Shown here: one piece after another, positions 763 to 48,983 of the stretch | Position numbering within the stretch: position 1 is the stretch's first letter | Layout: every line of letters begins with the position of its first letter | From: Nanobdellota archaeon | Lineage (GTDB): Archaea > Nanobdellota > Nanobdellia > Pacearchaeales > GW2011-AR1 | Assembly (NCBI GenBank): GCA_030647965.1 | Contig: JAUSIT010000017.1 | Location: forward strand, 1-49,238 | Reading direction: 5' to 3' | Length of the DNA: 49,238 bases | Program-made: the position numbers and the translations under genes | Notes under the pieces: generated by a model | The model's input: only the letters and a program-made list of their open reading frames with translations | Databases searched by the model: none | What the model was told of the DNA's origin: nothing

Positions 763-3648
763 ATGGAAGATGAAATTAATTTTAGTGTGATTGAAAAGAA
801 ATGGCAGGAAAAGTGGGAAAAAGAAAAATGCTTTGAAGTTAAAGAAAGCAAGAATATGGAAAATAAGAAATTTTCCAAATCTTCGGCTAAAGAGGTTAGC
901 CTTCAGACAAAAAAGAAATGTTATGTTCTTGAAATGTTTCCATATCCTTCTGGAAGTGGATTGCATATGGGTCATGCTTTTAATTATTCAATTGGAGATA
1001 TATATGCAAGATATAAAAGAATGAAGGGATTTAATGTTCTTTATCACATGGGTTTTGATTCATTTGGATTGCCTGCTGAAAATGCTGCAATAAAAGCAGG
1101 AGAGCATCCTAAAAAATATACTGCAAATGCAATTTCTAATTATATTAAACAGTTAAAAAATCTTGGATTAAGTTATGATTGGAGTAGAAAGGTTGTAACT
1201 TGTGATCCTGAATATTATAAATGGAATCAATTTTTCTTTTTGAAACTTTTTGAAAAAGGTTTGATTTACAAAAAGAAATCAGCAGTTAATTTTTGTAATA
1301 AATGCGATAGTGTTCTTGCAAATGAACAGGTTCATGGAGGAATGTGTTGGAGACATGAAACTAATCCTGTTGAAATAAGACATTTAGAACAATGGTTTAT
1401 CAAAACAACAAAATATGCAGATGAATTATTAGAATTTCTTCCAAAATTAAATTGGCCTAATAGAATAAAGGCAATGCAAGAAAATTGGATTGGAAAAAGC
1501 CATGGAACTGAAATTGAGTTTGAAATCATCAAAACTGAAAGTTTTGGGGATGATCAGAAATTACAAAAGAATAAGAAAATTTCTGACATCAATAATAAAA
1601 AATGGAAGATATTTACAACAAGGCCTGATACAATTTATGGAGTAACTTTTATGGTTGTTTCTGCACAGCATTCTGAATTAATGCAATTGGTTACAAAAGA
1701 ACAAAAAAGTAAAGTTGAAGAGTTTTTGAAAAAATTAAAATCTGTTTCTGAAAAAGAACTTGAAGCAATGGAAAAAGATGGAGTTTTTACAGGAAGTTAT
1801 GCAATAAATCCTTTGACAAAAGATAAAATACCTGTTTATGCAGGAAATTTTGTTGTTGCCGATTATGGTTCTGGAATGGTAATGGCTGTTCCTGCACATG
1901 ACCAAAGAGATTTTGAGTTTGCGAAAAAATATAATATTCCTATTAAAGTTACAATTGAAAATACAAATAAAATAATTGCTATAGAAAAATCATTAAGACT
2001 AGAATTTTATAATAATGTTAGAAAATTTGCAAAAGTTGATATTAAAGATGGTTTAGTTAATATTTATACTGATAAGGTTAATGAAGTATTTGAATTAGCT
2101 AAAAATAATTTTATTGGTGCTCAATGGTATATTCATTCTGAAGGGAATATAAAGAAAATAATGTTTCATTCTGATAAAGAAAATAAAATTTTTGATTGGA
2201 ATTCTGAAAAGGAAATTAAAGAAGCAAAAGATTATGGAAGAAAATTAAAAATTAAAGAAGAACAATTAGATTTTAATGAATTAAGAGGAGCCTATACTGG
2301 TTCTGGAATTTTAATTAATTCTGGAGAGTTTAATGGATTATCAAGTGAAAAAGCAATCGAAGAAATTACCAAACTTCTTGAAAAGAAAAAATTAGGAAAA
2401 AAAGTTATTCAGTATAAATTAAGAGATTGGCTTGTTTCAAGACAGAGATATTGGGGAACTCCTATACCTATGATTTATTGTGCTAAATGTGGCATAGTTC
2501 CTGTTCCTGAAAAAGACTTACCTATTTTACTTCCTGAAAATATAAAATTTGGAAAAGGAAATCCTCTTGAATCAAGTGAAGAATTTGTAAATGTTAAATG
2601 TCCAAAATGCAAAGGAAAAGCAAAAAGAGAGACAGATACAATGGATACTTTTTTTGATAGCTCTTGGTATTATCTAAGATATTGTGATTCAAAAAATCAA
2701 AAAATGCCTTTTGATAAAAAAAAGGTTAATTATTGGATGCCTGTTGACCAGTATGTTGGCGGAGCAGAACATGCATGCATGCATTTAATTTATGCAAGAT
2801 TTTTTACAAAAGCTTTGAGAGATATGGGTTTTGTGAAAATTGATGAGCCATTTACAAGATTATTTAATCAGGGAATGCTTCATGGAAGTGATGGAAATAA
2901 AATGTCTAAATCCTTGGGAAATGTTGTTTTGCCTGAAACTGTTTCAGAAAAATATGGAATTGATACTGCAAGATTATTTTTAGTTTCTAGTGCAAGTCCT
3001 GACAGCGACATTAATTGGAATGTAGAAGGTATTGAAGGAAGTTTAAAATTTATTAAAAAGATTTTTAATTATGTTTCTGATGCAAAATTTGGAAAATCAG
3101 GAATTATTTTTGAATCTAAAATAAACAAAGCAATAAAAGAAATTTCAAGTGATATTGAAAATTTCAAGTATAATATTGCTGTAATAAAATTAAGGGGATT
3201 ATTTGAATCAATTGAAAAAGAAAAGCAAATTGCAAAAAAAGATTTTGAGAATTTTTTAAAATTGCTTGCCCCATTTTGCCCGCATATTACTGAAGAAATG
3301 TGGCATAATCTTGGAAACAAGAATTTTATTTCTCTTGAAAAATGGCCTGTTGCAGATGAAAAAAAGATAAATGAAAAGCTTGAAAAGCAGGAAGAATCTG
3401 CTGAAAAACTTGCTGGAGATATTAATAATATTTTAAAAATTGTAAAGTCAAAAGGTCAGGATGCAAAAAAAGCCTATGTTTATGTTATTCCAAATGAAAA
3501 ACAGGTTTTTTTAGATTATTTGGATGATATAAAGAAAAGAATAGAAGTAGATATTGAAGTTTTTGCAGTTAATGACAAGAATAAGTATGACCCAAAGAAT
3601 ATTGCAGGAAAAACAAAGCCAGGAAAACCAGGGATTTATTTGGAGTGA
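763..3648 (+). CDS. leuS: Leucyl-tRNA synthetase, bacterial type, with an insertion in the editing domain
   Basis: This enzyme charges tRNA-Leu with leucine in the cytoplasm. The HIGH motif is HMGH (68-71) within PYPSGSGLHMGH. The editing (CP1) domain has TTRPDT (285-290) and VPAHDQRDFEFA (376-387), the catalytic core continues with VDQYVGGAEHACMH, and KMSKS is at 713-717. These signatures are those of bacterial LeuRS rather than the archaeal/eukaryotic type. At 961 aa it is about 100 residues longer than typical bacterial LeuRS. The excess is a block at about 400-508, between the conserved FAKKYNIPIK and YTGSGILINSGEFNGL segments of the editing domain. The N-terminus also has a lysine-rich stretch (about 26-52). 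The gene is single and leaderless; acquisition from a bacterium (possibly CPR) is inference. Confidence 0.95.
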   Translation: MEDEINFSVIEKKWQEKWEKEKCFEVKESKNMENKKFSKSSAKEVSLQTKKKCYVLEMFPYPSGSGLHMGHAFNYSIGDIYARYKRMKGFNVLYHMGFDSFGLPAENAAIKAGEHPKKYTANAISNYIKQLKNLGLSYDWSRKVVTCDPEYYKWNQFFFLKLFEKGLIYKKKSAVNFCNKCDSVLANEQVHGGMCWRHETNPVEIRHLEQWFIKTTKYADELLEFLPKLNWPNRIKAMQENWIGKSHGTEIEFEIIKTESFGDDQKLQKNKKISDINNKKWKIFTTRPDTIYGVTFMVVSAQHSELMQLVTKEQKSKVEEFLKKLKSVSEKELEAMEKDGVFTGSYAINPLTKDKIPVYAGNFVVADYGSGMVMAVPAHDQRDFEFAKKYNIPIKVTIENTNKIIAIEKSLRLEFYNNVRKFAKVDIKDGLVNIYTDKVNEVFELAKNNFIGAQWYIHSEGNIKKIMFHSDKENKIFDWNSEKEIKEAKDYGRKLKIKEEQLDFNELRGAYTGSGILINSGEFNGLSSEKAIEEITKLLEKKKLGKKVIQYKLRDWLVSRQRYWGTPIPMIYCAKCGIVPVPEKDLPILLPENIKFGKGNPLESSEEFVNVKCPKCKGKAKRETDTMDTFFDSSWYYLRYCDSKNQKMPFDKKKVNYWMPVDQYVGGAEHACMHLIYARFFTKALRDMGFVKIDEPFTRLFNQGMLHGSDGNKMSKSLGNVVLPETVSEKYGIDTARLFLVSSASPDSDINWNVEGIEGSLKFIKKIFNYVSDAKFGKSGIIFESKINKAIKEISSDIENFKYNIAVIKLRGLFESIEKEKQIAKKDFENFLKLLAPFCPHITEEMWHNLGNKNFISLEKWPVADEKKINEKLEKQEESAEKLAGDINNILKIVKSKGQDAKKAYVYVIPNEKQVFLDYLDDIKKRIEVDIEVFAVNDKNKYDPKNIAGKTKPGKPGIYLE

Positions 3649-7204: not shown

Positions 7205-7585
7205 TTAGTTGTATGAATTTAATTTTTCAAGTTTTTTTTGAATATCTAAAAGTTCTCTATCTATTCCACTTATTTTTTCTTCTTTTACTTTTTTATATTC
7301 AACTTCTTTTTTTTCTTTTTTAGGAAATTTTTTTTCTGTAATTGGTTTTGGAACATTTTTAGGTAATTTGTCCTCTAATTTTTCTAGATAGTCAACAAGC
7401 GAAGAAAATAATGTTGAAAGTTTTGCTTTTAATAGTGCTTCTTCATTATTAATTGATTCAATATTATGGAGATGTTTTATAGAATTTAATAAATCCATTT
7501 CAGAATTAAGTATTACTGATTTTGCTTTTGCATAATTCTGTACATTAAATGACAAATAAACACTTTCGTCTTTTTTAGATTTCAT
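7205..7585 (-). CDS. Lys-rich coiled-coil protein, 126 aa
   Basis: The product is not recognised. The N-terminal half (YLSFNVQNYAKAKSVI ...) is helical. The region near residues 75-105 is lysine-rich and probably flexible, and a short C-terminal coiled coil ends in LLDIQKKLEKLNSYN. I chose the ATG at 7585, one base after the upstream gene's stop (TAA at 7589-7587), over the ATG at 7621, which would need a 35-base overlap. It is translationally coupled to the 195-aa coiled-coil protein, so the two may form a complex. Similar paired coiled-coil genes occur in DPANN genomes as far as I recall, without known function. Confidence 0.65.
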   Translation of the reverse strand: MKSKKDESVYLSFNVQNYAKAKSVILNSEMDLLNSIKHLHNIESINNEEALLKAKLSTLFSSLVDYLEKLEDKLPKNVPKPITEKKFPKKEKKEVEYKKVKEEKISGIDRELLDIQKKLEKLNSYN

Positions 7586-10419: not shown

Positions 10420-10438
10420 TGATAAACTGAACTATCGG

Positions 10439-10615
10439 AAAAACTCTCTTGTTTATTCGTTGGGTTTTTAGGACTTCAAAATTGTAAGATTTTGACAGCT
10501 TCAGGAATGTAAATTCCTGATAGTGCTCAAGAAATCATATTTCTTGACATGCTCAAGATTTTGCAATCTTGACATAATCAGAAATGAGCTTCCTTAATAG
10601 TACTCATTTCTGATA
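10439..10615 (+). repeat. Family-2 structured repeat: chain of six hairpins
   Basis: P1 is AAAAACTC/GGGTTTTT (10439-10446/10462-10469), then AGGACTTC. P2 is AAAAT/ATTTT (10478-10493), then GACA-GCTTC. P3 is AGGAAT/ATTCCT (10503-10518), then GATA-GTGCTC. P4 is AAGAAAT/ATTTCTT (10529-10545), then GACA-TGCTC. P5 is AAGATT/AATCTT (10555-10570), then GACA-TAATC. P6 is AGAAATGAG/CTCATTTCT (10580-10611), then GATA. Stems vary while the linkers GAYA-xxxTC are conserved. It occupies most of the gap between the SpoIIM-like gene and the next TATA box. The same architecture recurs at 12316, 16456, 45651 and 48725. Confidence 0.8.
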
Positions 10616-10652
10616 TAACAAGCTTTTTAAATTGAAATCTCTTTTGTAAACT

Positions 10653-12153: not shown

Positions 12154-12272
12154 GCACTTCGTGGGGATACTAGGTCACCTAGAAAAAGTCTTACGCTTAT
12201 ATAGCGTGTTATTAATTGTAAGAGCAAAACTTTTTGCAGTTCCCCTAAATTAATTAATTGCTAATTTTATTA
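12154..12272 (-). repeat. Family-1 structured repeat, copy A (5'-truncated)
   Basis: Read on the minus strand it runs GGGGAACTGC, then the long hairpin (12235-12183), then CTAGGTGACCTAG, TATCCCC and ACGAAGTGC. The hairpin pairs AAAAAGTTTTGCTCTTA with TAAGCGTAAGACTTTTT, with a few mismatches. The other end (CAACTTCGTTG) seen in copies D and E is missing. With the family-2 copy at 12316 it fills most of the 12137-12488 gap. Confidence 0.75.
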
Positions 12273-12315: not shown

Positions 12316-12428
12316 TGTCAAGAAAATAAATTGTAGAATCTAGTTAGTAAATGTTGTTTCACAAGGTCAGATTTTCTTGAACATCCAAAAATCCAAACAA
12401 GTTACATGTTGTAAACTCAAGGATTTTT
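12316..12428 (-). repeat. Family-2 structured repeat, minus orientation
   Basis: On the minus strand: P1 AAAAATCC/GGATTTTT (12428-12421/12394-12387), then GGATGTTC, P2 AAGAAAAT/ATTTTCTT (12378-12371/12327-12320), then GACA. Stem sequences differ from the other copies, but the order AAAAA-stem-TTTTT, GGATGYTC, stem, GACA is the same. The apical part of P2 is a large 43-base loop. Confidence 0.72.
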
Positions 12429-12488
12429 TGATAAGAAATATTTAAAAATAAGAAAAACTAGTTATAATTAGAAAAAGAGGAAATAAAG

Positions 12489-16237: not shown

Positions 16238-16453
16238 CAACTTCGTTGAATTAGTTTGCTTTACAAGCAATATAAGATGATTGCCTGGCGGCAATCCGCG
16301 ATTTGTTAATATTTATTAATGGATGGTTGGAGAAGTAGGAAGTTTTGTTTTTACAATTATTAATAAAAGTCGGGAGCTGAAAAAGTTTTACCCTTACAAT
16401 ATCAAATAAAAGATATAAGGGCGAAACTTTTTGCTAAGCGACTATTTATAATC
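16238..16453 (+). repeat. Family-1 structured repeat, copy B
   Basis: It begins CAACTTCGTTGAATTAG, followed by the small hairpin TTGCTT/AAGCAA, GATTGCCTGGC and GGGAGCTG. The long hairpin comes next (16380-16432, AAAAAGTTTTACCCTTA with TAAGGGCGAAACTTTTT), then GCTAAGCGACT. Middle pairs are CCC/GGG where copy E has CTC/GAG. The distal ACGAAGTGC end is absent. It fills much of the 446-base divergent gap 16171-16616. Confidence 0.75.
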
Positions 16454-16455
16454 AA

Positions 16456-16521
16456 AAAATTCATGTATACAAATATTGGAATTTTAGGATGCTCAGAAAT
16501 GTCAATGAAACATTTCTGACA
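16456..16521 (+). repeat. Family-2 structured repeat (compact copy)
   Basis: P1 is AAAATTC/GAATTTT (16456-16462/16479-16485), then AGGATGCTC (16486-16494). P2 is AGAAATG/CATTTCT (16495-16501/16511-16517), then GACA. A weaker hairpin GCTAT/ATAGC follows at about 16531-16547. This is the simplest complete example of the family and starts three bases after family-1 copy B. Confidence 0.75.
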
Positions 16522-34239: not shown

Positions 34240-34413
34240 GCACTTCGTTTTTATACTAAGTCGACTAGAAAAAGTTTTGCTCTTATATTTTTTCGTTCTT
34301 ATTGTAAGAGTAAAACTTTTTGCGTCTCCTAATAATTTATTAACTAATCGTAATTTTTGCTAGAAAATTCCATTTATTCTTGTTTGTTAAAACAAACTAT
34401 TTCAACGAAGTTG
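34240..34413 (-). repeat. Family-1 structured repeat, copy E (both ends present)
   Basis: On the minus strand: CAACTTCGTTGAAATAG, small hairpin TTTGTT/AACAAA, AATTTTCTAGCAAAAATTAC, AGGAGACGC, long hairpin (34321-34269), CTAGTCGACTTAG and ACGAAGTGC. The long hairpin pairs AAAAAGTTTTACTCTTA with TAAGAGCAAAACTTTTT. This is the most complete copy and the best reference. It fills the 300-base divergent gap 34160-34459 together with two promoters. Confidence 0.8.
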
Positions 34414-45644: not shown

Positions 45645-45650
45645 TACCAA

Positions 45651-45763
45651 AAAAATTGTTTTTCGCAAACTCCCTACTTTAGTTCGCGAGTAAGAAAAAA
45701 CAATTTTTAGGGTGCTCAAGAACCCGAGACACGCCCTGGAATTTATTCCAAGGGTTCTTGACA
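45651..45763 (+). repeat. Family-2 structured repeat after dphB
   Basis: P1 is AAAAATTGTTTTT/AAAAACAATTTTT (45651-45663/45696-45708), then AGGGTGCTC (45709-45717). P2 is AAGAACCC/GGGTTCTT (45718-45725/45752-45759), enclosing GAGACACGCCC and the hairpin TGGAA/TTCCA (45737-45750), then GACA. Its position just after a stop codon would also suit transcription termination. The TATA box of ileS follows at 45791-45806. Confidence 0.78.
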
Positions 45764-48724: not shown

Positions 48725-48834
48725 TGTCTGAAATTAAAATCTAATTTTTTAGAGTAAAATTTTAATTTCGGAGCATCCTAAAAACAAGTACATATCTTAA
48801 ACTAATTTTCTTAGTATCTATGTACATTGTTTTT
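48725..48834 (-). repeat. Family-2 structured repeat, minus orientation
   Basis: On the minus strand: P1 AAAAACAATGTACATA/TATGTACTTGTTTTT (48834-48819/48794-48780, one bulge), then AGGATGCTC (48779-48771). P2 is CGAAATTAAAAT/ATTTTAATTTCA (48770-48758 region / 48740-48729), then GACA (48728-48725). The 14-15 bp P1 and 10-12 bp P2 are unrelated in sequence to other copies, yet keep the same order and linkers. Confidence 0.78.
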
Positions 48835-48983
48835 CTGATTTTAGATAGTCTGGAAAAAATTTGACTACTCTAGAAAAGGAAAAATAAGAGAAAAAGATTC
48901 TGAAATAAAATTTAAAAAAATATGATTTTATATTCGATGAATTGTGTTTTCACTCCCGTCTCGGGGGGATAAAAAAAAGAAAC

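Follow-up and report, generated by a model that had tools for sequence, protein, structure and literature searches.

The window, by which we mean the whole 49,238-nt stretch of archaeal DNA analysed here, contains dispersed copies of a palindromic repeat that we call Family-2. The preliminary description had reported five intergenic loci sharing one hairpin-linker plan, and all five were found to follow it, with the corrected cores listed below; two of them lie on the minus strand and three on the plus strand. One copy, inserted in the leucyl-tRNA synthetase (LeuRS) gene at 1526-1588, had been left out. The features are given below, where R1 denotes a covariance model built from 24 compact copies, and the strict finder is a two-hairpin search applied to 852 kb of stretches around matches.

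763..3648, plus strand: leucyl-tRNA synthetase gene, 961 aa, which hosts an in-frame copy (phmmer to 1h3n, E 2e-218)
1526..1588, plus strand: 63-nt in-frame copy (21 codons) in the leucyl-tRNA synthetase gene (R1 E 3.9e-6); segment missing from T. thermophilus LeuRS
10435..10497, plus strand: Family-2 element at the head of a hairpin chain, with P1 AAAAACTC..GGGTTTTT, variant linker AGGACTTC, P2 AAAATT..GATTTT and GACA (read directly; R1 10434-10498, E 0.007)
10498..10549, plus strand: chained two-hairpin module, GCTTC-(AGGAAT..ATTCCT)-GATAGTGCTC-(AAGAAA..TTTCTT)-GACA (read directly); L022, but not L025, holds a module of this type, inserted exactly
10550..10574, plus strand: chained hairpin, TGCTC-(AAGATT..AATCTT)-GACA (read directly)
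10575..10616, plus strand: chained hairpin, TAATC-(AGAAATGAG..CTCATTTCT)-GATA, a degenerate P2-type end (read directly)
12316..12431, minus strand: Family-2 copy, intergenic (R1 E 1.9e-4)
16452..16521, plus strand: compact Family-2 copy between divergent genes (best R1 match, E 3.1e-10)
45647..45763, plus strand: Family-2 copy of the ACC/GGT variant, with left end ACCAAAA and linker AGGGTGCTC (strict finder)
48725..48838, minus strand: Family-2 copy, intergenic (R1 E 0.0013)

The copy at 45647, whose P2 stem is a different variant, is not among the listed R1 matches and is recovered by the strict finder. Several other features of the window were observed. A perfect 58-nt tandem duplication (ACCGAGATTCTCC...AATGCTCCC twice) occupies positions 1-116 at the contig end, where it may mark the edge of the assembly or the beginning of a tandem array. 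Another family of palindromic repeats, of the AAAAAGTTTTGCTCTT..AAGAGCAAAACTTTTT type, is present at 12154-12257, 16387-16434 and 34240-34343, and its members are nested in the P1 loop of two Family-2 copies (L007 and L015). The LeuRS gene also encodes another segment of about 100 aa (residues about 402-506) that has no T. thermophilus counterpart.

When read on its own strand, the element has the plan A^TCA(A/G)AAAAA - P1 loop - TTTTT - linker - P2 hairpin - GACA^T, in which carets mark the insertion boundaries. The linker between P1 and P2 is the near-constant (A/G/T)GGATGCTC, that is, (A/G/T)GGATG(C/A/T)TC. The 5' arm of P2 is mostly AGAAAT or CGAAAT and most P1 stems start with AAAAAC, and the subfamilies covary. 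The cores range from 53 to about 180 nt, and are larger when other repeats nest inside. The shortest, of 53-54 nt, are exemplified by ATCAAAAAAACCGGTTAGGTTTTTAGGATGCTCAGAAATGCGGACATTTCTGACAT (L130, with the flanking A and T included), while the longer copies carry extra hairpins or entire other repeats within the P1 or P2 loop. Two further loci (L106 5298-5431 and L076 about 7356-7459) hold palindromic three-hairpin versions with linker-like sequence flanking P1 on both sides; their layout, TGTC-hairpin-..ATCCTAAAAACCC..GGGTTTTTAGGATGCTC-hairpin-GACA, resembles head-to-head dimers.

We searched the genome that carries the window, a 982-kb MAG that is 85% complete. The 14-base linker TTTTTAGGATGCTC gave 74 matches at up to two mismatches against 19 in the reversed control, and the 20-base pattern TTTTTRGGATGMTCMGAAAT gave 34 at up to one mismatch against none. 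The reversed TTTTTRGGATGMTCMGAAAT pattern also had no match across 200 genomes of the order, and the strict finder returned 131 copies against none on reversed sequence. The linkers thus occur far above chance. R1 detected 52 copies at E<0.01 in the same genome, and other DPANN genomes carry the pattern as well. With many additional copies, significant covariation and linkers in such excess, the family withstands the refuting test that the preliminary description had set.

The stems of the 24 compact copies are paired in 98.7% of cells, with changes on both sides in 6 of the 13 pairs. The covariation score was 0.227, compared with 0.065 in shuffles (0/500 reached it) and at most 0.076 in slid controls, which upholds the claim that the structure is maintained. 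From the outside in, P2 varies between A-U and C-G at the closing pair, then between G-C and A-U, then between A-U and G-C, and finally among G-C, C-G and U-A. The inner P1 pairs covary too in a set of 72 cores, although this set was picked partly for complementarity. The preliminary description had also stated that the stems differ completely between copies while their arms stay complementary. The complementarity stands, whereas "completely" does not, as most P2 stems carry AGAAAT and most P1 stems AAAAAC.

The insertion site is well defined. The left flanking base is A in 134 of 138 copies, and the right flank starts with T in 120 of 126, followed by any base and then A in 107 of 126. Insertion is precise between the A and the T, with a duplication of at most 1 nt. 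Nested copies can be compared with paralogous empty sites (L022 with L025, and L147 with L003), and other copies begin exactly at an older GACA^ (L120, L127 and C29:29284). Since nearly every copy ends in GACA^T, each copy leaves a new A^T site, and new copies landing there beside an older one would build chains of hairpins. The six-hairpin chain at 10435-10616 appears to have arisen in this way, by nesting and by insertion at GACA^T. The nested two-hairpin modules (CATCAG-hairpin-GTGCTC-hairpin-GACA) may have a left boundary lying 2 nt further out than that of the main family.

About ten copies lie within open reading frames, of genes read on either strand. Their cores, from TCA to ACA, measure 63, 63, 72, 81, 87, 102, 102, 105, 111 and 126 nt, and 10/10 are divisible by three (chance 1.7e-5, for a set defined after the data were seen). 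The hosts are a YggS/PLP-homeostasis protein, a radical-SAM protein, a Fic/Doc protein, LeuRS, a Hef-like helicase and an NAD-dependent epimerase (the last two at the C-terminus), and four unassigned proteins at C20:10531, C34:58142, C39:26269 and C40:4696. The helicase gene (L155 3-2744, named by reading the sequence) also contains an apparent intein upstream of the palindromic element, which lies in frame near the C-terminus.

Homologues of four of these genes lack the insert, which shows precise in-frame insertion into protein-coding sequence. The 37-aa insert of the radical-SAM protein is missing from 17/17 aligned homologues, and that of YggS, of about 31 aa, from YggS homologues and structures. 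The T. thermophilus LeuRS is short by 19 residues at the place of the 21-codon insert, and the empty-site sequence is gagtttgaaa^tcaataataa. In the Fic/Doc gene, which reads GGAAA-(TCAG..GACA, 105 nt)-CAAAAGA, the empty site is GGAAA^CAAAAGA and the insert is exactly 105 nt long. The motif HPFSDGNKRTA, unbroken in at least 12 relatives, is divided by this insert (L148 1501-1605) into HPFSDGN and KRTAA; the protein with the split motif is probably inactive or altered. The inserted peptide, which is common to these two unrelated proteins, led a YggS query to match the genome's own radical-SAM gene. The open frames suggest that the in-gene copies are translated, and the predicted element peptides include HFGASQKPNKPEGFSD and SFLDAPKSRPAK. 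In-frame copies occur in other species too (L072, L095 and L103), although not every in-gene copy is benign, as one puts a stop into an ADP-ribosylglycohydrolase gene (L003). Errors of MAG assembly are possible, yet precise in-frame inserts in independent genes are hard to obtain in that way.

Reading of the common intergenic sequence showed a TAG in TTTTTAGG in the forward frame and, on the opposite strand, a TGA at the P2 base and a TAA at the linker. These stops fall in the frames that most in-gene copies use, and the in-gene copies have no stops in the host frame while their hairpins are still paired. The first linker base is A in 0/9 in-gene copies against 17/27 other copies (p 0.001), and P2 is closed by a C-G pair in 7/9 against 3/27 (p 0.0004). 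The swap of this pair to C-G removes the stop and keeps the hairpin. Most likely, the bias arises because only certain variants persist within genes, and it need not involve selection on the hairpin after insertion; host genes would tolerate those copies that can, by chance, be translated.

The element is present in 20 of the 200 genomes of the order and in 14 of the 104 genera, with 0 to 129 matches per genome; the pattern search gave 129 in one genome (G022) and 34 in the genome of the window. In a public collection with one genome per species, pattern matches came nearly all from Pacearchaeota, Nanoarchaeota and Woesearchaeota MAGs. Matches in bacteria (Bacillus, Treponema, Bacteroidetes and others) were rejected, being single matches without the element structure; one R1 match among these candidates was weak (L110, E 0.07). 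One MAG, JAUYDD, has the repeat at the start or end of many of its contigs. No exact match was found among 2.9 million viral contigs. Judging by these relatives, the genome of the window is that of a DPANN archaeon of the Pacearchaeota type.

Copies are spread genome-wide in both orientations, and they have entered between genes, into other family copies, and in frame into genes. We suggest, with a probability of about 0.86, that Family-2 is a non-autonomous mobile palindromic element of the same kind as the Rickettsia palindromic elements (RPE). The preliminary description had also offered a structured ncRNA or protein-binding RNA tag, or a terminator-like 3' element. The stem covariation, the mostly intergenic location and the T-rich P1 arm would suit such an RNA. 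When we examined the 18 clean intergenic copies for which both neighbours were called, however, the neighbouring genes relative to the element were (+,+) in 6, (-,+) in 5, (+,-) in 4 and (-,-) in 3, and these mixed orientations indicate no fixed relation to transcription. A terminator or UTR role was rejected on this ground and on the 5/18 copies between divergent genes. The copies within genes on either strand, the patchy occurrence in 20/200 genomes and the lack of any Rfam match at the gathering score also fit an RNA element poorly, and we regard that explanation as very improbable. Still less credible is that the in-gene copies are removed from RNA or protein like an intron or intein, leaving the host proteins unaltered. 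Splitting of the Fic catalytic motif would be easier to tolerate if the copy were removed, but the ten in-gene copies keep the frame and avoid stops, which would be unnecessary under removal.

A narrower form of the mobile-element reading is a MITE- or REP-type element for which an IS200/IS605- or RAYT-type Y1 (HUH) TnpA, supplied in trans, performs single-strand cut-and-paste at A^T. This we consider possible, at somewhat less than even odds. The lack of target duplication, the hairpins at both ends, the asymmetric target flank and a linker that can pair with both termini all agree with it, and Y1 genes exist in 79 of the 200 genomes of the order. Against it, the search for a TnpA-Y1 gene in the genome of the window found none, and no Y1 was detected at E<=0.001 in the element-bearing G002, G009, G014 and G018; the Y1 searches covered the 200 genomes of the order and eight element-bearing genomes. 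About half of the element-positive genomes have Y1, which is little above 79/200 and thus gives no clear association. In addition, 19 Y1 loci of relatives contained no ends matching the element. G022 has a single Y1 remnant (L190 1-260), which is cut off by the end of a contig, directly beside an element copy. A Y1 transposase as the resident mobiliser was rejected on these searches; of the earlier proposal of a palindromic element mobilised by an IS200/IS605-type enzyme, the mobile palindrome is supported, while the enzyme is a less likely part. Neither a serine recombinase nor TnpB exceeded the cut-off in the same genome, whose 85% completeness means that absence of an enzyme is not proof. 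A tyrosine recombinase acting on single-stranded hairpin sites, as in integrons or Xer systems, would fit conservative insertion without duplication, and a Phage_integrase-family protein is encoded in 12/12 element genomes tested. However, the same family is found in 14/14 control genomes, the copies are dispersed singly with no cassette arrays, and attC core motifs were not noticed in the ends by eye; this reading seems improbable.

Under the mobile-element reading that we prefer, the hairpins would be what a transposition machinery working on single-stranded or cruciform DNA recognises. Precise insertion without duplication, together with the hairpin ends, points to single-strand or recombinase chemistry and not to DDE transposition. 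The linker GATG could switch between pairing with ATC at the left end and with CAT at the right end. The ATC-GAT pairing is present in 124 of 129 copies and the co-changed ACC-GGT in 2 of 129, and pairing with CAT on the right in 109 of 129. As the motif is almost invariant, alternate pairing with both ends is suggestive only. A bolder idea, which we rate as rather unlikely, is that Family-2 is a fragment of a still-moving single-stranded DNA transposon, in which the constant linker would serve as a shared guide to the left and then the right cleavage site. An enzyme of an undescribed class would move it, and such a system would explain the spread of RPE-type coding palindromes.

RPE are described as palindromes of about 100-150 bp that are found in intergenic positions as well as in frame within unrelated protein genes, with a recognisable peptide and no known mobiliser (Ogata 2000, as reviewed in PMC2229807 and PMC10969869). 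Family-2 is likewise palindromic, intergenic and in frame in unrelated ORFs, with no known transposase, and for four of its host genes homologues without the insert were found. It differs from RPE in its DPANN host, its two hairpins with a constant linker, its shortest core of 53 nt, its A^T target, and its nesting and chaining; the comparison is of organisation, not of sequence. Coding palindromes are known in Wolbachia too. In Archaea, palindromic repeats fused into protein genes have been reported in Methanocaldococcus jannaschii (Suyama 2005, as cited in PMC2996958 and PMC2229807). Going by that secondary description, these share with Family-2 an archaeal host and a location in protein genes, although they reside in a methanogen from a different phylum. 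Our literature search, outside which most subscription journals lay, found no report of such elements in DPANN archaea.

The CGTC-tagged REPs, RPE-4 and RPE-6 among them, have a CGTC/TGTC tag beside a short hairpin, with copies within ORFs and no dedicated transposase (PMC3733652). The complement of P2-GACA is likewise TGTC followed by a stem (TGTC-AGAAAT..), which is a resemblance and not proof of descent. In contrast to these REPs, which have A-T in the first two positions, the commonest second stem pair of Family-2 is G-C; moreover P1 and P2 differ and do not form head-to-head dimers (an overall palindromic look is confined to L106 and L076), and the hosts are archaeal. The GTAG REPs with RAYT transposases are short high-copy hairpins proposed to move as single-stranded DNA (PMC3733652), whereas Family-2 has the ends ATCA and GACA without GTAG, and no RAYT/Y1 gene was found in the genome of the window. 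Like DDE-type MITEs, the element is small, non-autonomous and AT-rich, but it lacks terminal inverted repeats (its ends are TCAAAAAAAC and GACA) and its duplication is at most 1 nt at the Fic empty site. As in IS200/IS605-derived MITEs, copies insert beside a short target without duplicating it, but no partner Y1 gene with the same ends was found in the genome of the window or at the Y1 loci of relatives.

The lack of an attached transposase has left the movement of coding palindromes such as RPE an open question. Family-2 offers clean empty sites, a defined A^T target, a 53-nt core and compensatory changes that avoid stops. With element counts from 0 to 129 per genome, the defined target and core make a presence/absence search for the mobiliser feasible. 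For the archaeon itself, these copies mean that housekeeping proteins encoded in a small DPANN genome, an aminoacyl-tRNA synthetase among them, contain inserts of 21-42 aa.
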